64,000 nucleotides of DNA. Origin: Bosea sp. NBC_00550 (GTDB taxonomy: Bacteria; Pseudomonadota; Alphaproteobacteria; Rhizobiales; Beijerinckiaceae). The notes beneath the pieces are model-generated. The model worked only from the letters and a program-made list of their open reading frames with translations, was not told where the DNA came from and did no database searches. The position numbers were made by a program, and so were the translations under genes. The stretch is from contig NZ_CP102772.1 in NCBI RefSeq assembly GCF_026020075.1, positions 1,178,001 through 1,242,000 on the forward strand, read 5' to 3'. This document shows positions 15,109 to 61,305 of the stretch, in pieces. Each line of letters opens with the position of its first letter. Position 1 is the stretch's first letter.

Positions 15109-15182
15109 TGGAGGCCTCGCCCGGAATCGAACCGGGGTGCAAGGATTTGCAGTCCTCTGCGTAACCACTCCGCCACGAGGCC
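15109..15182 (-). tRNA. tRNA-Cys (GCA)
   Basis: Reading the minus strand, GGCCTCG pairs with CGAGGCC in the acceptor stem. The anticodon loop is ACTGCAAAT (anticodon GCA), the T arm contains GGTTCGATTCC and CCA is encoded. Its 3' end is the integration target duplicated at 13717-13732. Confidence 0.97.
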
Positions 15183-15352: not shown

Positions 15353-15427
15353 TCCCGGATAGCTCAGCGGTAGAGCAATCGACTGTTAATCGATTGGTCG
15401 CAGGTTCGAATCCTGCTCCGGGAGCCA
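15353..15427 (+). tRNA. tRNA-Asn (GUU)
   Basis: The acceptor stem TCCCGGA pairs with TCCGGGA. The anticodon loop is CTGTTAA (anticodon GTT), the T arm has GGTTCGAATCC, and the 3' CCA is encoded. It is divergent from tRNA-Cys, 170 bp away. Confidence 0.97.
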
Positions 15428-52210: not shown

Positions 52211-55200
52211 ATGAGCATTCCTCCTCCGAGCCAGATCGCCAAACCGCAGCTCGACCGTCTGCTCGATGCGCTGAACCGCGGCGACAAGCCGACGCTTGCC
52301 GGCGTGCCGGACGGATTCGACGCCGTCGTCCTCGCCGACCTCACCCGCGCCCGCGCCAAGAAGGCCGAAGGGGCGGCGCTGCTCGTCTTCGTCGCCCGCG
52401 ACGGCCAGCGCCTGCAGGTGCTGGAAAACGCGCTGCAATTCGTCGCGCCGGACCTGGAAGTGATGAGCTTCCCGGCCTGGGACTGCCAGCCCTATGACCG
52501 CGTCTCGCCCGCGCCCGCCATCGTGGCGCACCGGATGACGACACTGTCGCGCCTCGCCAAGACCAAGTCGGGCGACAGGCCGCGCCTGCTGCTGACCACA
52601 GTCAATGCCGCGCTCCAGCGCGTGCCCGCATTCAGCAAGGTGGCCTCCGAGAGTTTCTCGGCAGCGCCCGGCAACGTGGTCGATATCGAGCAGCTGGCGC
52701 GCTGGCTCGACATCAACGGCTACATGCGCACCTCGACCGTGCGCGAGACCGGCGAATTCGCCGTGCGCGGCGGCATCGTCGACCTGTTCCCGCCGGGCAT
52801 GCCCGCGCCGATCCGGCTTGATTTCTTCGGCGACACGCTGGAATCGATCCGCACCTTCGATCCGGAGACGCAGCGCACCACCGGGCAGTTGCGCGGGCTC
52901 GACCTCGTGCCGATGTCCGAGGCGCAGATGACCAGCGAGAGCATCCGTCGCTTCCGCCAGTCCTACATCTCGACTTTCGGCACGCCCGGCCGCGACGACA
53001 CGCTCTATGAGGCCGTGAGCGAAGGCCGCCGCCCGGCCGGCCTGGAGCATTGGCTGCCGCTGCTGGCGGAAAAGCTCGACACGCTCTTCACCTATCTGCC
53101 CGACGTGCCGCTGGTCCTCGACCATCAGGCGGAAGACGCGGTTGGCGAGCGGATCAGCCTGATCAAGGACTATTACGATGCCCGCAAGGCCGCGCTGGAG
53201 CAGGGCGCGGGCGGCGGCATTCCCTACAAGCCATTGCCGCCGGACGCGCTCTATCTCTCGACGGCCGACTGGCGCGCGGTGATGGACACATCCGGCGTCG
53301 CCAGCATGACGCCGTTTCAGCTACCGGACAGCGAGGGCAAGCTGATCCTCGATCTCGGCGGTAAGCAGGGCCGCAGCTTTGCGGCGGAGCGAGCAGGCGA
53401 TTCCGGCAGCGTCTTCGAGGCCGCCGTCGCGCATGTGAAGGCCCTCGAAGCCGACGGCAAGCGCGTCATCCTCGCCGCCTGGTCGGAGGGTTCGCGCGAG
53501 CGACTTGCCCATGTGCTCGAGGACCATGGACTGAAGAGCGTCCAGATGACGGGCTCTCTGCGCGCGGCCTTCGATCTCAAGCCCGGTACGGTCGCGCTCG
53601 CGGTCTGGGGTTTCGAGACCGGCTTCGAGGCCGGACGCCTCGCGGTCATCGGCGAGCAGGACATCCTCGGCGACCGCCTGGTGCGTCCGCGCCGCAAGAC
53701 CAAGCGCCCGCAGGACTTCATCGCGGAGCTCTCCTCGCTCGCGCCGGGCGACCTCGTCGTTCATGTCGATCACGGCATCGGCCGTTTCATCGGCCTGCAA
53801 TCGATCACGGCCGCCGGCGCGCCGCATGACTGCCTCGAAGTCCATTATGCCGGCGATTCCAAGCTGTTTCTGCCGGTTGAGAATATCGAGCTTCTGTCGC
53901 GCTATGGCTCGGAAGATACCGAGGTCCAGCTGGACCGGCTCGGCGGCGGCGGCTGGCAGGCACGCAAGGCCAAGCTCAAGCAGCGCATCCGCGAGATGGC
54001 GAGCAAGCTCATCCAGATCGCAGCGGCGCGCGCGCTCAAGGATGCGCCGCGCCTCGTCCCGCCGGCCGGCGTCTACGACGAGTTCATTGCCCGCTTCCCC
54101 TATGAGGAGACGGAAGACCAGCAGAACACCATCGATGCCGTGCTCGACGATCTCGGCGCCGGCCGGCCGATGGACCGGCTCGTCTGCGGCGATGTCGGTT
54201 TCGGCAAGACCGAGGTCGCATTGCGCGCCGCCTTCGCCGCCGCCTTGAACGGCAAGCAGGTCGCGGTCGTGGTACCGACGACGCTGCTCGCCCGCCAGCA
54301 CTACCGTAATTTCGCGGATCGCTTTGCCGGCTTACCTGTCAATGTCGGGCAGGCCTCGCGCTTCGTCGGCAGCGCCGATCTCAAGGCGGTGAAGCAGGGT
54401 GCGAAGGACGGCACGATGGACATCGTCGTCGGGACCCACGCATTGCTCGGCAAGGGCGTCGACTTCAAGGATCTCGGCCTCGTCATCGTCGACGAGGAGC
54501 AGCATTTCGGCGTCGCCCACAAGGAGAAGCTGAAGGAGCTGCGAGCCGAGGTGCATATGCTCACCCTCTCGGCCACGCCGATCCCGCGCACGCTCCAGCT
54601 CGCCATGACCGGTGTGCGTGAGCTCTCGATCATCGCGACCCCGCCGGTCGACCGCCTCGCGGTGCGCACCTTCGTCACGCCGTTCGATCCGCTGATCGTG
54701 CGCGAGGCGCTGCTGCGCGAGCGTTACCGGGGAGGGCGCTCCTTCTATGTCGTACCGCGCATCGAGGACATCGCCGAGGTCAAGGACTTCCTCGACAAGC
54801 AGGTGCCCGAGGCCAAGGTCGGCATCGCCCATGGCCAGATGGCGGCAGGCACGCTGGAAGATGTGATGACCGCCTTCTATGACGGCCAGTACGATATCCT
54901 GCTCTCGACCACGATCGTCGAATCCGGGCTGGACATCCCGACCGCTAACACGCTGATCGTGCATCGCGCCGACATGTTCGGCCTCGCCCAGCTCTATCAG
55001 CTGCGCGGGCGCGTCGGCCGTTCGAAGACGCGCGCCTATGCGCTCTTCACCGTGCCGGCCAACCGGAAGCTGACCGAGCAGGCCGAGAAGCGCCTCAAGG
55101 TGCTGCAGTCGCTCGACACGCTCGGCGCCGGCTTCCAACTCGCCAGCCACGACCTCGACATCAGAGGCGCCGGCAACCTGCTCGGCGACGAGCAGTCAGG

Positions 55201-55759
55201 CCATATCAAGGAAGTCGGCTACGAACTCTACCAGCAGATGCTCGAGGAAGCGGTGGCGGCGCTCAAGGCCGGCATCGAGTTCGAGACCGAAGCGCAATGG
55301 TCGCCATCGATCCAGGTCGGCGCGCCCGTGATGATCCCCGAGCACTATGTCGGCGATCTCTCGCTCCGGCTGTCCCTCTACAAGCGCCTCTCGACCATGG
55401 ACGACGATGCCGAGCTGCAATCCTTCGGCGCCGAGCTGGTGGACCGCTTCGGCCCGCTGCCGGAGGAGGTCAATCAGCTTCTGGAGATCGTCGCGATCAA
55501 GGCGCTCTGCAAGCGCGCCAATGTGGAGAAGGTCGAGGCCGGGCCGAAGGGCATCATCGTCGCCTTCCGCGACAACGAGTTCGCCAATCCGGAAGGGCTG
55601 GTCTCCTATGTCGCGAAGATCGGCACGCTGGCGAAGGTGCGCCCCGACATGCGCGTCGTCTTCATCGACGATTTCGACAGTGTCGAGCAGCGCCTGAAGG
55701 CAACGCGGCGGTTGCTGACGGATCTGGCGCGGATCGCGGAGAGGAAGAAGGCGGCCTGA
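52211..55759 (+). CDS. mfd: Mfd, transcription-repair coupling factor
   Basis: An 1182-residue SF2 translocase that removes stalled RNA polymerase and recruits UvrA. The order is: N-terminal UvrB-homology module (about 30-350), the RNAP-interaction domain (about 510-580, LVVHVDHGIGRFIGLQ), the RecG-like helicase core (MDRLVCGDVGFGKTEVALRAAF, VIVDEEQHFGV, SATPIPRTLQLAM, GLDIPTANTLIVHRAD, QLRGRVGRS), and a C-terminal TRCF domain. Length matches the family. Confidence 0.96.
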   Translation: MSIPPPSQIAKPQLDRLLDALNRGDKPTLAGVPDGFDAVVLADLTRARAKKAEGAALLVFVARDGQRLQVLENALQFVAPDLEVMSFPAWDCQPYDRVSPAPAIVAHRMTTLSRLAKTKSGDRPRLLLTTVNAALQRVPAFSKVASESFSAAPGNVVDIEQLARWLDINGYMRTSTVRETGEFAVRGGIVDLFPPGMPAPIRLDFFGDTLESIRTFDPETQRTTGQLRGLDLVPMSEAQMTSESIRRFRQSYISTFGTPGRDDTLYEAVSEGRRPAGLEHWLPLLAEKLDTLFTYLPDVPLVLDHQAEDAVGERISLIKDYYDARKAALEQGAGGGIPYKPLPPDALYLSTADWRAVMDTSGVASMTPFQLPDSEGKLILDLGGKQGRSFAAERAGDSGSVFEAAVAHVKALEADGKRVILAAWSEGSRERLAHVLEDHGLKSVQMTGSLRAAFDLKPGTVALAVWGFETGFEAGRLAVIGEQDILGDRLVRPRRKTKRPQDFIAELSSLAPGDLVVHVDHGIGRFIGLQSITAAGAPHDCLEVHYAGDSKLFLPVENIELLSRYGSEDTEVQLDRLGGGGWQARKAKLKQRIREMASKLIQIAAARALKDAPRLVPPAGVYDEFIARFPYEETEDQQNTIDAVLDDLGAGRPMDRLVCGDVGFGKTEVALRAAFAAALNGKQVAVVVPTTLLARQHYRNFADRFAGLPVNVGQASRFVGSADLKAVKQGAKDGTMDIVVGTHALLGKGVDFKDLGLVIVDEEQHFGVAHKEKLKELRAEVHMLTLSATPIPRTLQLAMTGVRELSIIATPPVDRLAVRTFVTPFDPLIVREALLRERYRGGRSFYVVPRIEDIAEVKDFLDKQVPEAKVGIAHGQMAAGTLEDVMTAFYDGQYDILLSTTIVESGLDIPTANTLIVHRADMFGLAQLYQLRGRVGRSKTRAYALFTVPANRKLTEQAEKRLKVLQSLDTLGAGFQLASHDLDIRGAGNLLGDEQSGHIKEVGYELYQQMLEEAVAALKAGIEFETEAQWSPSIQVGAPVMIPEHYVGDLSLRLSLYKRLSTMDDDAELQSFGAELVDRFGPLPEEVNQLLEIVAIKALCKRANVEKVEAGPKGIIVAFRDNEFANPEGLVSYVAKIGTLAKVRPDMRVVFIDDFDSVEQRLKATRRLLTDLARIAERKKAA

Positions 55760-55776: not shown

Positions 55777-55871
55777 CCGTCATTCTCGGGCAGAGCGAAG
55801 CGAAGACCCGAGAATCTCATGCAGGAAAGGGCGCGTTCTCGTCCTGAGATGCTCGGGTCAAGCCCGAGCAT
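55777..55871. repeat. dispersed palindromic repeat, copy 8, cut by the IS
   Basis: CCGTCATTCTCGGG...GACCCGAGAATCTC and GATGCTCGGGTCAAGCCCGAGCAT. Every other type 1 copy of this unit continues into GACG after CAT. Here the sequence changes at 55872, and the missing GACGGG resumes at 57053, beyond the IS110 element. Confidence 0.88.
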
Positions 55872-55899
55872 TGTCTGTTTGTGATGGGGTATTGAGGTT

Positions 55900-56090
55900 T
55901 TGTTCCGCGTGAGCGGGATGTCTGGTCCGGCTGGCCGGCCGGACCAGACGCGACTCGTCGACCGTCCCGAGCCAGGGCTTTCGCCCGTCGTCATCGAGGT
56001 TGCGGGTCGCTTCCCTTGTCACGCTTGGTGAGTTGCCAGGGCCTCTTCGCATGAGCCGAACGCCCGCAGACAATCACAAGCCCTTCGAGG
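55900..56090 (+). ncRNA. predicted IS110 bridge RNA (seekRNA)
   Basis: The non-coding left end shows three elements in order. (1) A 5' hairpin, GTCTGGTCCGGC/GCCGGACCAGAC (55920-55949). (2) A target-binding loop: stem GCGACTCG...CGACC with GGTTG...CGGGTCGC closes a loop with CCCGAGC (55966-55972), an inner hairpin GGGC-TTTC-GCCC, and GCCCGTC (55983-55989). (3) A donor-binding loop: TGAGTTG (56029-56035), an inner stem GGGC/GCCC, and CAGACAAT (56067-56074), closed by CTTGT/ACAAG. CCCGAGC equals the left target flank and GCCCGTC is the reverse complement of the right flank GACGGGC. TGAGTTG equals the IS right end and CAGACAAT is the reverse complement of the IS left end ATTGTCTG. The exact 5' and 3' ends are estimates. 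Confidence 0.88.
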
Positions 56091-56100
56091 ATAGCTCCCG

Positions 56101-57051
56101 ATGCCGGTTTGCACCACGGTCCCTGAACCCTCCCGTTTCCTCGGCTGTGATGTCGGCAAGGCCGGGATCGTCGTCTTCGACAGCCGCGGCGACACCCTCG
56201 GCAGTCTCCCTAACGAGGCTTCGGCCCTGGCAGCCTTCGCAGCCGGGCTCGGCCCGGACTGCCTCGTCGTCTGCGAGGCGACGGGCGGCTATGAGGACGC
56301 CCTGCTGGCGGCGCTCGTCTCAGCCGGCTGCCCGGCCCATCGCGCCGATGCCCGCAAGGTCAAGGCCTTCATCCGCTCCTATGGGACGCTCGGGAAGAGC
56401 GATGCGCTCGATGCCAGGGCGCTTGCCCGCTACGGCGCCGAGCGCCACGCTCGGCTGATCCGCTGGCAGGCGCCCGCCCCGGCACGCGAGCGCCTCCAGG
56501 TCCTGGTGCGGACCAGAGCCGATCTCGTCGCCCAGAGAACGGCCTGCACCAACCGGCTCAACGCTCCCGGCATCGAACCGGTCAAAGCCCCGCTCCAGGC
56601 CCTGCACGACTGCCTCAAAGCCCAGATCGCCGCCCTGGCGCAAACCATCGCCGAGACCCTGCGCACCATCGCCCGCACCGACAGAAGCGAGCAGGCCTTG
56701 CGCTCCATCCGCGGCATCGGAACGACCACCGCCGCCACCCTCATCGCACTCATGCCCGAGCTCGGACGCATCAGCCGGCGCCAGGCCGCCGCACTCGCAG
56801 GCCTGGCTCCTCATCCAAACCAGAGCGGCAGTCGAGACGCCTACCGCCCAACCAGAGGCGGCAGGGCCGAAATCAAGGCCGCCCTGTTCATGCCCGCAAT
56901 GGCCGCCGCAAGGCACGACCCCGCCATGCGCGACGCCTACACACGCCTCATCGCAAACGGAAAAAAGCCAATCGTCGCTCTCACCGCAATCATGCGACGC
57001 ATCATCGTCATCGCAAATGCCCGCGTCAGAGACCAAAACAAACTGAGTTGA
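56101..57051 (+). CDS. IS110-family DEDD transposase/recombinase
   Basis: A 316-residue recombinase. The N-terminal RuvC-like DEDD domain has FLGCDVGKAGIVV (Asp), VVCEATGGYEDALL (Glu) and GKSDALDARALARYG (Asp, Asp). A coiled segment spans about 125-200. The C-terminal Tnp_20 domain has IRGIGTTTAATLIALMPELG and LAGLAPHPNQSGSRDAY, whose Ser is the likely nucleophile. The frame is intact, so the element may be active. ATG 56101 has GAGG 10 nt upstream, within the 3' side of the bridge RNA. Confidence 0.95.
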   Translation: MPVCTTVPEPSRFLGCDVGKAGIVVFDSRGDTLGSLPNEASALAAFAAGLGPDCLVVCEATGGYEDALLAALVSAGCPAHRADARKVKAFIRSYGTLGKSDALDARALARYGAERHARLIRWQAPAPARERLQVLVRTRADLVAQRTACTNRLNAPGIEPVKAPLQALHDCLKAQIAALAQTIAETLRTIARTDRSEQALRSIRGIGTTTAATLIALMPELGRISRRQAAALAGLAPHPNQSGSRDAYRPTRGGRAEIKAALFMPAMAAARHDPAMRDAYTRLIANGKKPIVALTAIMRRIIVIANARVRDQNKLS

Positions 57052-57094
57052 TGACGGGCTGCGAAAAGGCCGGTTTCACGGCATCTCGCGCCCT

Positions 57095-57811
57095 CTACAT
57101 ATCGAAGAAGACCGTCTCGTTCTCGCCGGCCAGATTGATATCGAGCCACCAGGTTCCGTCCGTCTTGCGCTGGGCGACCAGGGTGTGGCGGCGCGGTTCG
57201 GGCACCAGAGCGAGGATCGGGTCGGTCTCGTTGCCCTCGCCATCGGCGAAGTAGAGCCGGGTCGGCAGGCGCTTCAGCAAACCGCGGCCGAAGACCGAGA
57301 GCGCGATATGCGGCGCCTGCAGGCTGTTGCCGGGGCCGGGCACGCGGCCGGGCCGGATCGTGCGAAAACGGAAGACGCCATCCTTGTCGGTCGAGGCGCG
57401 ACCGAAGCCGATGAAATGCCCGTCGAGGGGAACCTCCTCGCGGGCGTCCTCGGGGCTGGCGTAGCGACCGGCGGCATTGGCCTGCCAGATCTCGATCATG
57501 GCGTCGTTGATCGGCGCACCCGCAGCGTCGTAGACGCAGCCGGCAAGCGCGATGACCTCACCCTCCGGCGTGCCGGAGCGGTTCGAGCCCGAGAGCAGGA
57601 AATGCTCCGGCGGCATCAGGTCCGGCCGCGCGCCCATCTCGGAACGGCCTACCAGATCGGCGCCGCCCTTCCAGGGCAGGCCGTAGTGGAAATACGGACC
57701 CACCGTCTGCCACGGTGTCTGGCCGAAGATCGAGGGGTCCTGGCTGTCCTGCCGCGGCGCCGCATTGCGGCTTTCCAGATCGGTGATTGCCAGATCAGTG
57801 GTCGTGGTCAT
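57095..57811 (-). CDS. pcaG: PcaG, protocatechuate 3,4-dioxygenase alpha subunit
   Basis: A 238-residue subunit of the intradiol ring-cleaving enzyme that converts protocatechuate to 3-carboxy-cis,cis-muconate. Family features are TPWQTVGPYFHYGLPW, MIEIWQANAAGRYASPED, FRFRTIRPGRVPGPGN and QAPHIALSVFGRGLLKRLPTRLYF. The iron ligands lie in the beta subunit, as expected. ATG 57811 has GAGGACGAGC upstream and overlaps pcaH by 17 nt. It is last in the operon, 43 nt from the IS110 element. Confidence 0.94.
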   Translation of the reverse strand: MTTTTDLAITDLESRNAAPRQDSQDPSIFGQTPWQTVGPYFHYGLPWKGGADLVGRSEMGARPDLMPPEHFLLSGSNRSGTPEGEVIALAGCVYDAAGAPINDAMIEIWQANAAGRYASPEDAREEVPLDGHFIGFGRASTDKDGVFRFRTIRPGRVPGPGNSLQAPHIALSVFGRGLLKRLPTRLYFADGEGNETDPILALVPEPRRHTLVAQRKTDGTWWLDINLAGENETVFFDM

Positions 57812-58514
57812 GCTCGTCCTCGAACGGCGTCTCGTCGCGGCCCTTGAGCACGATGTCGAAAACATAGCCCAGCGCCCAGTTCGGCACGGTGGTGCCGATA
57901 TCGAAGCGCGAGACCATGCGCTGGCGGTAGGGCATCGGCACCGCGTTGGCGATCGGGTCGATCTCGATCAGCGGATCGTCGGGGAAATACATCTGGGTCA
58001 CGAGCCGCGTGGCGAAGGCCGGCCCCAGCAGCGAAAGATGGATATGGGCCGGGCGCCAGGCGTTCTTGTGGTTGCCCCAGGGATAGGCGCCGGGCCGGAT
58101 CGTGACATAGCGATAGCGGCCCTGATCATCCGTGATGACGCGGCCGACACCGGTGAAGTTCGGATCGAGCGGCGCCGGCCAGTCGTCCTTGGCGTGGATG
58201 TAGCGGCCGGCGGCATTGGCCTGCCAGATCTCGACCACGGTGTTGGGAACAGGCCTGGCCTGCTCGTCGAGCACCCGGCCGGTGACCACGATGCGCTGGC
58301 CCTGAGGCTCGGCCTTGTGCTGGGCGGTGAGGTCGGTCATCGCCGGGCCCATCAGCTTCGCCCAGTCGCTCGGACCGGTGATCTCGGTCAGCGTCTGCGG
58401 GATCGCGATCGGCTGATGGCGCGGGCTGCGCGCCACGGTCGAACGATACTCCGCATGCAGCGAAGCCGGCTGGCCGGCATCCAGCGCCGAATAGGGAAGG
58501 ATCAGGCGGCTCAT
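57795..58514 (-). CDS. pcaH: PcaH, protocatechuate 3,4-dioxygenase beta subunit
   Basis: A 239-residue catalytic subunit. Fe(III) ligands are visible: Tyr in YRYVTIRPGAYPWGN and His-x-His in RPAHIHLSLLG. VVEIWQANAAGRYIHAKDDWPAPLDPNF is the intradiol dioxygenase signature. The C-terminal tail is acidic and His-rich (DEHDHDH). It follows the dehydroshikimate dehydratase gene by 39 nt, whose product is its substrate. Confidence 0.95.
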   Translation of the reverse strand: MSRLILPYSALDAGQPASLHAEYRSTVARSPRHQPIAIPQTLTEITGPSDWAKLMGPAMTDLTAQHKAEPQGQRIVVTGRVLDEQARPVPNTVVEIWQANAAGRYIHAKDDWPAPLDPNFTGVGRVITDDQGRYRYVTIRPGAYPWGNHKNAWRPAHIHLSLLGPAFATRLVTQMYFPDDPLIEIDPIANAVPMPYRQRMVSRFDIGTTVPNWALGYVFDIVLKGRDETPFEDEHDHDH

Positions 58515-58553
58515 CGGGAAGGGCTTCTCGCGAACATGTCGACGCGTCTCTCC

Positions 58554-60461
58554 TCAACCATGGCTCGGCGCCGGGACCGTGATCGGCCGGGCGAGCCTCG
58601 CCTGCGCGGTCAGGCGGATGCCGGCATTGGCAGCACCGTAGCCCGCATAGCCGTCGCGCTGGACGATCTCGAAGAACAATCCGCCATCGAGCGTCTGCGT
58701 ATAGGCCTGCCGGAAGCTGCCGCCCGCATCGCTATCATAGAGGATGTTCAACGTCTTCATCGCGTCGATCTCCTGCGCCGTCAGGTCGGAGCGTGCCTCT
58801 AGGTCATCGTAGTAATTCTCGGGGATCGGTAGCATGGCGACGCCGTTCGCGGCCAGCCGCTCCACCGTCGTCGCGATATCGTGAGTCGCGAAGGCGATGT
58901 GCTGCACGCCGGAGCCGAAGAAGTCGGTGATGAAGCGGGCCGAGAGCGTGCGATGGCTCTGCGAGCCGTTGAGGATCAGCCGAAGGCCGTGATCGGTCTT
59001 CCCGTCGAGGCCGCTCTCGATGACCTGGCTCTGGACGACACCGCCGGGATCCAGCACTGCCTGGCTCGGCGTCTTCCTGGTCTCGAACAGCGAGGAATAG
59101 AACAGCAGCCAGGTCAGCATTTCCTCGTACTGCATGCTCTGCGAGACATGGTCGACGCCGACGAGGCCGGCGCCCGCGTCGCTCTCATCCGTCGGCGCGA
59201 AATCGACTTGCGACCAGCGGCCGAGCGCCGAGGCACGGTCGAGGAAATAGACGAGGCTGCCGCCGAGGCCGCGCACGGCGGGGATGTCGAGTTCGCCGGG
59301 GCCGATCGCTCCGGCATGGGGCACGTCGAGCAGGGCCTTGGCGCGTGCGATCGCAGCCTGCGCGTCCGGCACCCGCAGAGCCAGCGCGCAGACCGAGGTG
59401 CCATGCGTGATCTGGTAGCTATGGGCGAAACCATCCGCCTCGCTGTTCAGCACGATGCGGATATCGCCCTGGCTCCACAGATCGACATCCTTCGAGCGAT
59501 GCGCGCCGGTGCGGCCGAAGCCGAGCGCGCGCAGCAGCTTCTCGAAGCCCGGGCGTTCCGCTTCGGAGACGGCGAATTCGATGAACTCGACAGCTTCGAC
59601 CGGACCGGGCGGCGGCATCGCGACAGCACCGGGCACGGGCTTGCCGCTCTGCCGCGCGGTCTCGTCGAGCAGCCATATCAGCGAGCGATGGCCATCGAGA
59701 GCCACCGAGCGGGCTGAGCCGGCGCGGAAGCGGTCGTTGAAGATTTCAAGCGAGAGCACGCCGTCATAGCCGGTCGAGACCAGCGCGCGCATGAAACCGG
59801 AGAGATCGAGATCGCCCTGTCCCGGCAGGCAGCGCCAATGCCGGCTCCAGGAGAGCGGGTCCATCTGCAGCAGCGGTGCGTCGGCCATCTGCACCATCGC
59901 GATCTTGTCACGCGGGATCGTGCCGATCGCCGCGAGATCGAGCCCGCGCGCCAGGATGTGGAAGCTATCGAGCACGATCCCGACTTCCGGCCGGTTCGCC
60001 CGGCGCACGATCTCCCATGCGTCGCGATAGTCGAAGACGTGGCGCCCCCAGGCCAGTGCCTCATAGCCGACGCGCAGGCCGCGTTTGCCGGCCCGCTCGC
60101 CGAGCTCGGCGAAATCGGCCGCAAGCCGGTCGATGCCGGCCAGCGCCTCGGGCGAGACGGTGGAACAGACGAAGAGAAGATCCGTGCCCAGTTCCTGCAG
60201 CAGGTCGAACTTGCGCTCGGCCCTGTCGAAGACGCGTTGGCGGCGGCCTTCCGGCATGCCCTCGAAATCGCGGAAGGGCTGGCAGGTCACGATCGTCAGG
60301 CCGAGATCGCCGCAGATGCGCCGGACCTCAGTCGGAGAGCCGGGGAAGGCGATTAGGTCGTTCTCGAAGATCTCGACCGCCTTGAAGCCGGCGGCAGCGA
60401 TGGCCTCGAGCTTTTCCTGCAGCGTGCCGGAGACGCAGACGGTGGCGATCGATGGAATCAC
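58554..60461 (-). CDS. quiC: QuiC-type 3-dehydroshikimate dehydratase (TIM barrel + HPPD-like)
   Basis: A 635-residue two-domain enzyme that dehydrates 3-dehydroshikimate to protocatechuate. The N-terminal xylose-isomerase-like barrel (1-270) has metal ligands in VGYEALAWGRHV, IVLDSFHILARG, WRCLPGQGDLD and GVLSLEIFND. The C-terminal VOC domain (about 290-620) resembles 4-hydroxyphenylpyruvate dioxygenase, with LVGVDHVSQSM, GVQHIAFATHDI and LFFEIVQRDGY supplying a His-His-Glu site. The same fusion and length occur in Pseudomonas QuiC1. It starts with GTG at 60461, with AGGAGG 7 nt upstream. Confidence 0.93.
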   Translation of the reverse strand: MIPSIATVCVSGTLQEKLEAIAAAGFKAVEIFENDLIAFPGSPTEVRRICGDLGLTIVTCQPFRDFEGMPEGRRQRVFDRAERKFDLLQELGTDLLFVCSTVSPEALAGIDRLAADFAELGERAGKRGLRVGYEALAWGRHVFDYRDAWEIVRRANRPEVGIVLDSFHILARGLDLAAIGTIPRDKIAMVQMADAPLLQMDPLSWSRHWRCLPGQGDLDLSGFMRALVSTGYDGVLSLEIFNDRFRAGSARSVALDGHRSLIWLLDETARQSGKPVPGAVAMPPPGPVEAVEFIEFAVSEAERPGFEKLLRALGFGRTGAHRSKDVDLWSQGDIRIVLNSEADGFAHSYQITHGTSVCALALRVPDAQAAIARAKALLDVPHAGAIGPGELDIPAVRGLGGSLVYFLDRASALGRWSQVDFAPTDESDAGAGLVGVDHVSQSMQYEEMLTWLLFYSSLFETRKTPSQAVLDPGGVVQSQVIESGLDGKTDHGLRLILNGSQSHRTLSARFITDFFGSGVQHIAFATHDIATTVERLAANGVAMLPIPENYYDDLEARSDLTAQEIDAMKTLNILYDSDAGGSFRQAYTQTLDGGLFFEIVQRDGYAGYGAANAGIRLTAQARLARPITVPAPSHG

Positions 60462-60474
60462 GACGTGCCTCCTC

Positions 60475-61305
60475 TCAACCCAGCTTTGCGACGGCGCGGA
60501 GATCCTCGGCCGTGGTCGAGGGCAGGCCGAAGAATTCCAGATAGGCCGGGATCTGCTCGAACAGCATATCGGTGCCGACCTGCACCGCACAGCCGCGCTC
60601 GCGGGCTGCGGCCAGGAACGGCGTGATCTCCTGCGCCATCACCACCTCGCCGACGAAGGCGGAGGAGGGCAGGCGGCCAGTATCGAGCGGCAGCGGGTCG
60701 CCGGGCTTCATGCCGAGAGGCGTCGCGTTCACGACGATGTCGAATCCATCAGGATCGTTCGAGCCGGTGGCGACGCGCAAGGCGGGATAATGCGCTGTCA
60801 GCCGCCGGCCGAGCTCTTGGGCAGCCGTTCCCATTTGATCGTAAAGGCCTAGTTCGGCGACGCCAGCTCTGGCCAACGAGGCGGCGATCGCCGAGCCGAC
60901 ACCGCCGGCGCCGACGACGAGCGCGCGGGCGCCTGCAACGCTGCGCCCCTTGCGCAGCATGCCGCGCACGAAGCCTTCGCCGTCGAACATGTCGCCGGTC
61001 AGCCGTCCGTCGGCCTCGCGCCGCACCGCATTGCAGGCGCCGGCGATGGCAGCGGTCGGCAGCAGCGTGTCGACCAGCCCGATCGTTGTGACCTTGTGCG
61101 GCATCGTCACCAGCGCGCCATGGGCATTGGAGAGCCGGAAGAACAGCTTCAGGAAATCGGGATAGTCCTCGCTGCGGCAGCCCAGCGGCATGACGACGGC
61201 GTCGATCCCTTCGCGTTCGAAATAGGGATTGTAGATCAGGGGCGCCTTGAAGCTCTCGGTCGGGAAGCCGATATGGCCGATCATCCGGGTTCTGCCGCTG
61301 ATCAT
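60475..61305 (-). CDS. AroE-family shikimate/quinate dehydrogenase, catabolic clade
   Basis: A 276-residue NAD(P) dehydrogenase. The catalytic Lys is in LVTMPHKVTTIG, the nucleotide loop is VVGAGGVGSAIAASL and NATPLGMKPGD is conserved. The usual substrate motif SLSP near the N-terminus is replaced by TESFKAPLIYN, pointing to a divergent clade. With quiC, aroQ and pcaGH around it, the likely role is oxidation of shikimate or quinate for catabolism, not biosynthesis. It overlaps the Gfo/Idh gene by four bases. Confidence 0.85.
   Translation of the reverse strand: MISGRTRMIGHIGFPTESFKAPLIYNPYFEREGIDAVVMPLGCRSEDYPDFLKLFFRLSNAHGALVTMPHKVTTIGLVDTLLPTAAIAGACNAVRREADGRLTGDMFDGEGFVRGMLRKGRSVAGARALVVGAGGVGSAIAASLARAGVAELGLYDQMGTAAQELGRRLTAHYPALRVATGSNDPDGFDIVVNATPLGMKPGDPLPLDTGRLPSSAFVGEVVMAQEITPFLAAARERGCAVQVGTDMLFEQIPAYLEFFGLPSTTAEDLRAVAKLG

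Follow-up and report, generated by a model that had tools for sequence, protein, structure and literature searches.

Does the non-coding left end of an IS110-group insertion element in Bosea sp. NBC_00550 specify a bridge RNA, and does that RNA choose where the element inserts? The window, that is, the whole 64,000-nt stretch of DNA that was analyzed, contains one such element, bounded by AT core dinucleotides at positions 55870-55871 and 57051-57052 and situated between mfd and the genes for protocatechuate dioxygenase. Its sole gene (56101-57051, plus strand) encodes an IS110 transposase of 316 aa in an open frame. The DEDD (RuvC-like, PF01548) and Transposase_20 (PF02371) domains both score above their Pfam cut-offs, and the protein reaches 181.9 bits against the NCBIfam model NF033542, 'IS110 family RNA-guided transposase' (cut-off 140). 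The candidate catalytic residues D17, E59, D101, D104 and S242, the last forming an SG motif with G243, are all present and align with those of the PDB relatives IS621 and ISCro4, where the IS621 residue numbers come from parts of PMC11208158 and we infer the numbering offset to the alignment. A sequence-only reading of this locus had described the transposase as intact, and both the frame and these residues bear it out.

The layout is that of the IS110 group, with a non-coding left end of 229 nt between the left core and the start codon and a very short right end. The transposase stop codon TGA (57049-57051) begins in the right end and borrows its A from the right core, an arrangement shared by 15 of the 23 elements whose right end was read; in L157 the stop codon is located in the core and target flank. 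The neighboring genes (52211-55759 and 57095-60590) are mfd, the alpha and beta subunits of protocatechuate 3,4-dioxygenase and a gene that scores below the cut-off of the QuiC model. No relative of the transposase was found at E 1e-40 in 72,556 plasmid records. The features of the locus, in window coordinates, are as follows.

55778-55789, minus strand: CCGAGAATGACG site with one mismatch, in the partner repeat
55782-55815, inverted repeat: partner REP-like hairpin beside the target, arms ATTCTCGGG / CCCGAGAAT; not used
55849-55871, inverted repeat: target REP-like hairpin ATGCTCGGG-TCAAG-CCCGAGCAT, with the element inserted at the foot of the 3' arm
55863-55869, plus strand: left target CCCGAGC, identical at 8/9 own copies
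55870-55871, plus strand: left core dinucleotide AT, common to both junctions and to intact CCCGAGCATGACGG sites
55872-55879, plus strand: left end, equal to the right donor half, TGTCTGTT
55890-55895, plus strand: candidate -10 box TATTGA, only 3/6 in the window copy; its -35 partner TTGATT would exist only at the circle junction
55920-55949, plus strand: predicted 5' hairpin, from the fold and paired changes
55950-56010, plus strand: predicted target-binding loop module, outer stem 55950-55963 with 55998-56010
55966-55972, plus strand: left target guide CCCGAGC, equal to the left flank and covarying with it
55975-55986, plus strand: inner hairpin of the target loop, GGGC (55975-55978) with GCCC (55983-55986)
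55989-55994, plus strand: right target guide CGTCAT in the corrected register, pairing with the core AT and GACG
56023-56081, plus strand: predicted donor-binding loop module, GCTTG (56023-56027) with CAAGC (56077-56081) and inner GGGC (56039-56042) with GCCC (56062-56065)
56029-56035, plus strand: left donor guide TGAGTTG, equal to the right end at 57044-57050
56067-56074, plus strand: right donor guide CAGACAAT, reverse complement of core plus left end (55870-55877)
56101-57051, plus strand: IS110-group transposase, 316 aa
57043-57050, plus strand: right end, equal to the left donor half, CTGAGTTG
57051-57052, plus strand: right core dinucleotide AT
57053-57056, plus strand: right target GACG, present at 8/8 own copies that keep a right end

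Inspection of the left end confirms most of what the sequence-only reading had proposed, namely four guide segments in the order left target, right target, left donor, right donor, with each pair placed around an inner GGGC/GCCC hairpin. The left target, left donor and right donor guides match their sites at exactly the positions proposed. The accompanying claim that such matches are very hard to get by chance stands for the four together and fails for any single 7-mer: a given 7-mer is present in 2.6 to 6.5% of left-end shuffles that keep dinucleotide composition and the 8-mer in 0.08%, whereas all four guides in order were recovered in 0 of 100,000 shuffles (with the right target tested as CGTCAT).

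The right target guide had been read as GCCCGTC (55983-55989), but its GCCC belongs to the inner hairpin, as the 3' arm, and this placement lies 3 nt too far upstream. Among 37 rows with a right flank (25 from the first set of relatives and 12 held-out, described below), GCCCGTC matches at 69% of positions (0.689) and does not covary, with 13,968 of 20,000 shuffles as good. It fits the GACGGGC of the window copy only, and just GACG is common to the eight own copies with a right end. In the CGTCAT register, the match rises to 0.912 over four positions and covaries with the flank (37 rows, 19 types, 31/20,000 shuffles as good). Relatives with altered guides fix this register, so that CGTCAT of the window pairs with AT-GACG: L051 combines the guide CCTCAT with the flank ATGAGG, L160 the guide CCGTTGTCA with the right flank ATGACAACGG, and L167 and L173-L178 the guide TGTCAT with the flank ATGACA. 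Pairing is limited to about four bases past the core, and the right flank beyond GACG is not followed. For reprogramming, the correction has practical weight: a design built on GCCCGTC would change a hairpin arm rather than a guide. With respect to the core itself, the right target and right donor guides of the window copy pair with AT, whereas the left target guide (CA) and left donor guide (CC) do not. The left target guide carries AT in most relatives; in the window copy, as in L061, it is shifted by one base toward the inner hairpin, with CA facing the core.

The guides are set in a predicted structure that other elements also maintain. The minimum-energy fold of 55915-56095 comprises the 5' hairpin and the target loop with its inner GGGC/GCCC hairpin (z = -3.1), and for the donor loop it partly differs from the two-helix form used here, which was drawn by analogy. 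When this structure, derived from the window sequence itself, was scored over 21 relatives, 88.3% of cells were paired, compared with 76.0% after shuffling and 36-49% when the structure was slid. Changes on both sides are seen in 24 of 39 pairs, and in 12 of the 13 pairs of the 5' hairpin. Since the donor-loop helices hardly vary among the 21 relatives, the paired-change count lends them little support. Fold and compensatory changes agree with the 5' hairpin and two loop structures that had been suggested, and with the stem variation by which that suggestion was to be checked. Rfam covariance models for 4227 families gave no match at 55860-56110 up to E = 1; elsewhere in the window they match a suhB/mmgR small RNA and two tRNAs (356-430 minus; 15112-15182 minus; 15353-15424 plus).

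The Bosea genome contains nine copies of the element (L001-L009), whose transposase genes are DNA-identical in eight; the copy L009 lacks a right end. The left ends of the nine fall into two variants with a 1-base length difference in the linker between both loops, and L001 has one further change, in a stem. All nine are inserted at CCGAGC-AT, eight reading CCCGAGC and the ninth CCGAGC, and the right flanks of the eight copies with a right end begin with GACG and then differ. Unchanged guides at unrelated flanks, which would have spoken against guiding, are thus not what these nine identical-guide copies present. Each copy lies in an interspersed palindromic, REP-like repeat. The genome contains 51 exact CCCGAGCATGACGG sites, compared with 0 for the reversed control, and 129 remaining CCGAGCATGACG sites; most of the 30 CCCGAGCATGACGG sites inspected (of 51) form the same hairpin.

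Such a target invites the explanation that the transposase or a host protein recognizes the REP hairpin or its sequence directly, with the left-end matches as a by-product. The target is a hairpin at most copies, insertion sequences of other families also enter REPs, and transposase-based choice has been suggested for IS1397 and ISKpn1 (in parts of PMC1525189). We nevertheless consider direct recognition very improbable. The 5' arm ATGCTCGG is kept at 6/9 copies, yet the three without an intact arm (L002, L005 and L006) still sit at CCGAGC-AT-GACG. Beside the target hairpin lies an inverted partner repeat, many instances of which end in CCGAGAATGACG, a single-base departure from the target adjacent to the core; 6/9 copies have such a partner as a neighbor, and 0/9 are inserted in a site of this type. 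The guides moreover track the flanks across relatives, where 17 elements with both donor guides in common carry seven left-target-guide types with matching flanks.

The copies also bear on whether guiding belongs to the past, with a bridge RNA that worked in an ancestor and present copies that spread by REP recombination or are now inactive. The loss of the right end in L009, the misfit of the core-facing bases of the left guide and the weak -10 box point in this direction. Against it stand eight identical transposase genes with exact junctions at the same two bases, which fit recent transposition better than gene conversion, and we hold this explanation to be unlikely.

Relatives were gathered by a genome scan, in which 80 of 136 loci were kept, and with a covariance model (R1) built from 21 left ends. 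R1 found matches in 6/298 genomes of a family sample, 8/385 of a class sample, 3/398 of a phylum sample and 13/397 of an order sample, the own genome being included in each; family searches around G675 and G564 (9 and 2 genomes) added no further matching genome. The own genome also encodes another, distant IS110 transposase (L010, G000:C1:2466216-2467130, 38% identity), whose left end R1 does not match. The first set consists of 33 elements, namely 30 of 47 model matches together with L165-L167. The 17 matches dropped were eight further own copies, the repeats L141, L146, L149, L155 and L162, and the cut or degenerate L068, second L047 match, L144 and L161. L045, whose second core is AC, was excluded from the right-end and right-flank tests, and L058 and L142 from the right donor test. 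The order sample, collected after the idea had been formed, served as a held-out set from which 21 of 25 matches were used; the other four, which either looked degenerate or had a left end not assigned by R1 to an AT core, were excluded, and three of them fit badly.

Each of the four guides covaries with its site among these relatives (the right target in its corrected register), in answer to the check on left-end and flank covariation that the sequence-only reading had called for. Between the left target guide and the left flank of the same element, identity is 0.917 in the first set, compared with 0.593 after shuffling (0/20,000 shuffles as good; 33 elements, 20 types), 0.922 compared with 0.639 in the held-out set (0/20,000; 21 rows, 15 types) and 0.914 compared with 0.593 in both sets pooled (0/20,000; 33 distinct guide/flank types). 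Five or six of six positions match in 50/52 rows, and all six in 35/52. In the first set, the right target guide reaches 0.818 compared with 0.721 (120/20,000; 11 types), the left donor guide against the right end 0.938 compared with 0.646 (4/20,000; 8 types) and the right donor guide against the left end 0.886 compared with 0.748 (0/20,000; 19 types), where both donor covariations are partly favored by method, since R1 contains the pairing of left end and right donor guide and several right ends were chosen by inspection in knowledge of the left donor guide. These shuffle tests do not remove kinship. Tree-based paired tests go in the expected direction on average, with at most five supported independent pairs among the results listed, and are thus too small for significance.

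Individual pairs illustrate the agreement. The left target guides of L174 (TCACCAG) and L176 (GCGTAGG) equal their flanks, the left donor guides of L163 (GGCTAG) and L158 (GGGTTG) equal their right ends, and L189 joins the right donor guide CGAACAAT to the left end ATTGTTCG. Left guides differ from their flank at one position in L062, L143, L156, L158, L160, L165 and 9/21 held-out rows, and at two positions in L159 and L166; mismatches of the right guide fall at the fourth base in several rows. Clear misfits are L044, whose right flank ATTGTGACGG has three extra bases between the core and GACGG, and L045/L141, whose right flank ACCGGGGG has neither a second AT nor GACG. The flanks of L045 and L141, GGGCCCCCGGG and CCGGGGGCCC, are mutually inverted copies without ATGACG at the right, which can be read either as a different target or as a rearranged junction. 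The near-identical copies L165 and L167 (G976) carry the left target guides GCCGGG and GCGGGG, respectively, beside the same flank GCGGGG. L160 (G567) spans about 270 bp, with a left-end RNA, guides and a right end ~100 bp past the RNA but no transposase frame; it is possibly a non-autonomous form moved in trans.

Because the guide segments change together with their sites in relatives, the predicted RNA very likely directs the insertion site. The same evidence weighs on the thought that the left end is merely an untranslated leader or a small regulatory RNA of the transposase gene. It does lie directly upstream of that gene, and regulation by small RNAs (Asr9 and Ssr9) is described for the ISPpu9 transposase (parts of PMC8450116). 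A leader of this kind would not be expected to contain loops identical to the flanks and ends that also covary with these sites, and a left end devoid of any guiding role seems to us extremely improbable; regulation could be a second role.

The ordered guides, the compensatory pairing, the intact RNA-guided transposase and the covariation of all four guides together support an IS110 bridge RNA with target and donor guides as the best reading of the left end. Transcription of the left end is predicted to yield this RNA. Its first loop very likely pairs with CCCGAGC-AT-GACG of the REP-like repeat and its second, again very likely, with the joined ends of the element itself; the transposase would then recombine target and donor at the AT core. 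We put the probability of this explanation as a whole, from target pairing through donor pairing to recombination at the core, at roughly 0.93. By analogy with IS621, we infer that the RNA would be produced and bound by the transposase, that the element would circularize and that strand exchange would follow the same chemistry.

Comparison with IS621 of E. coli reveals extensive likeness. Both share the transposase catalytic residues by alignment, a left-end RNA (predicted here) with a 5' stem-loop, a target loop and a donor loop, the guide order, REP targets and a split -35/-10 (a candidate here); the core, inside the guide pairing in IS621, is paired by the two right guides of the window copy (parts of PMC11208160 and PMC11208158). 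The IS621 core is CT, in contrast to AT here, although IS621 works with AT cores too in a test (PMC11208158, in part), and the right donor guide pairing is unbroken over 6-8 nt here and interrupted in IS621 (PMC11208160, in part). The IS621 target sequence also differs from that of the element, and the right target guide here reads 4 bases beyond the core. ISHne5 is an element of Hyphomonas, an alphaproteobacterium. For it and five other diverse IS110 elements, predicted guides are presented in Extended Data Fig. 10 of PMC11208160, likened here by the legend of that figure. The ISCro4 transposase (PDB 9t56) is similar by protein sequence alone, at E 1.4e-26 over residues 11-306. ISPpu9, ISPpu10, ISPa11 and ISRm19 are IS110-family elements with all counted copies within REPs (parts of PMC1525189); their REP sequences and hosts differ from those of the element, and they were compared by targets, not guides. 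The seekRNAs of IS1111/IS110 embody the same idea, with left-strand and then right-strand target matches in an RNA encoded by the long non-coding region, whereas in IS1111 the RNA lies downstream of the gene and the match order is opposite, unlike the present element (PMC11187229, in part).

The split promoter has a candidate counterpart in this clade. Across the joined ends of the 26 elements whose right end was read, the candidate -35 is TTGATT in 22 and TAGATT in four. The best -10-like box at a spacing of 16-18 nt scores a mean of 3.56/6 compared with 2.31 in shuffled sequence (0/5,000; 32 distinct left ends), and other spacings score 1.97 to 2.66. Insertion swaps the TTG of the -35 for flank bases; in IS621, insertion likewise breaks the -35, with the -35 and -10 split across the circle junction (PMC11208160 and PMC11208158, in part). 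By this analogy, the window copy would form a promoter TTGATT-17 nt-TATTGA only at the circle junction.

The sequence-only reading had rightly noted that bridge RNAs or seekRNAs are established for IS110 relatives such as IS621 (parts of PMC11208160 and PMC11187229), and had called this element's RNA and target apparently new. As a further member of the group the element is new and well supported, the mechanism having been published in 2024 for IS621 and relatives. Novelty does not extend to the mechanism, REP targeting or natural retargeting, since bridge RNAs, guide covariation with targets and donors over thousands of elements, IS621 REP targeting and natural redirection are all in print (parts of PMC11208160, PMC11187229 and PMC1525189), redirection being known for ISEc11/ISXne4 (PMC11187229, in part). 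What appears fresh is a REP-bound clade that would retarget mainly through one guide segment; within the open-licence literature, we found no publication on clade-wide half-guide retargeting in this clade and none on IS110 in Bosea.

Variation in this clade is found mostly in the left target guide, which occurs in many forms and tracks the left flank; the other three guides vary little. The 54 rows (copies included) comprise 21 different 6-mers as left target guide, 10 as left donor guide and 12 as right donor guide, and 5 different 4-mers as right target guide, and a transposase tree of 39 rows requires at least 20 changes of the left target guide. Four elements with transposases 82-94% identical (L175, L176, L178 and L179) carry four different left target guides.

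Repeat content was compared with guide type through counts of CCGAGCATGACG and CTCGCAATGACG, which represent CCGAGC and CTCGCA sites. The own genome has 129/5. Among hosts of elements with a CTCGCA guide, the counts are 5/155 (G207), 12/524 (G1081), 11/19 (G1080), 4/18 (G079), 0/6 (G341) and 0/3 (G482), with G1082 against the trend at 5/1. In G1077, the host of L051, 29/30 matches to a third pattern read CTCAGGATGAGG and fit both changed target guides of L051. In contrast, L055 with its guide CACGGG is hosted by G1076, where seven CTCAGGATGAGG stand against a single CACGGGATGACG; third-pattern repeats are absent from G675, the host of L156 (guide CTCAGG); and G564 is rich in CTCAGGATGAGG, yet its two elements carry other guides; the own genome, too, has many CTCAGGATGAGG sites that the element leaves unused. 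The fit between guide and host repeats is thus clear in several genomes and not general.

These observations incline us, by a narrow measure, toward a REP-parasitic IS110 clade in Alphaproteobacteria that enters new hosts by rewriting the left target guide (6-7 nt) to the host REP stem, while the right target guide goes on reading a foot common to the REPs, ATGACG (or ATGACA/ATGAGG), and the donor guides do not change. If true, the clade would be a natural record of stepwise bridge-RNA reprogramming, with GCGGGG, GCGAGG, GCGTAGG and GCGGAGG as single-base steps among transposases 82-94% identical. With the element comes a further bridge RNA family that can be read clearly, marked by its AT core and by a right donor guide without interruption, and the natural guide/target pairs may be used for choosing programmable recombinases. 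The pace and the steps of target change in RNA-guided transposons also become testable.
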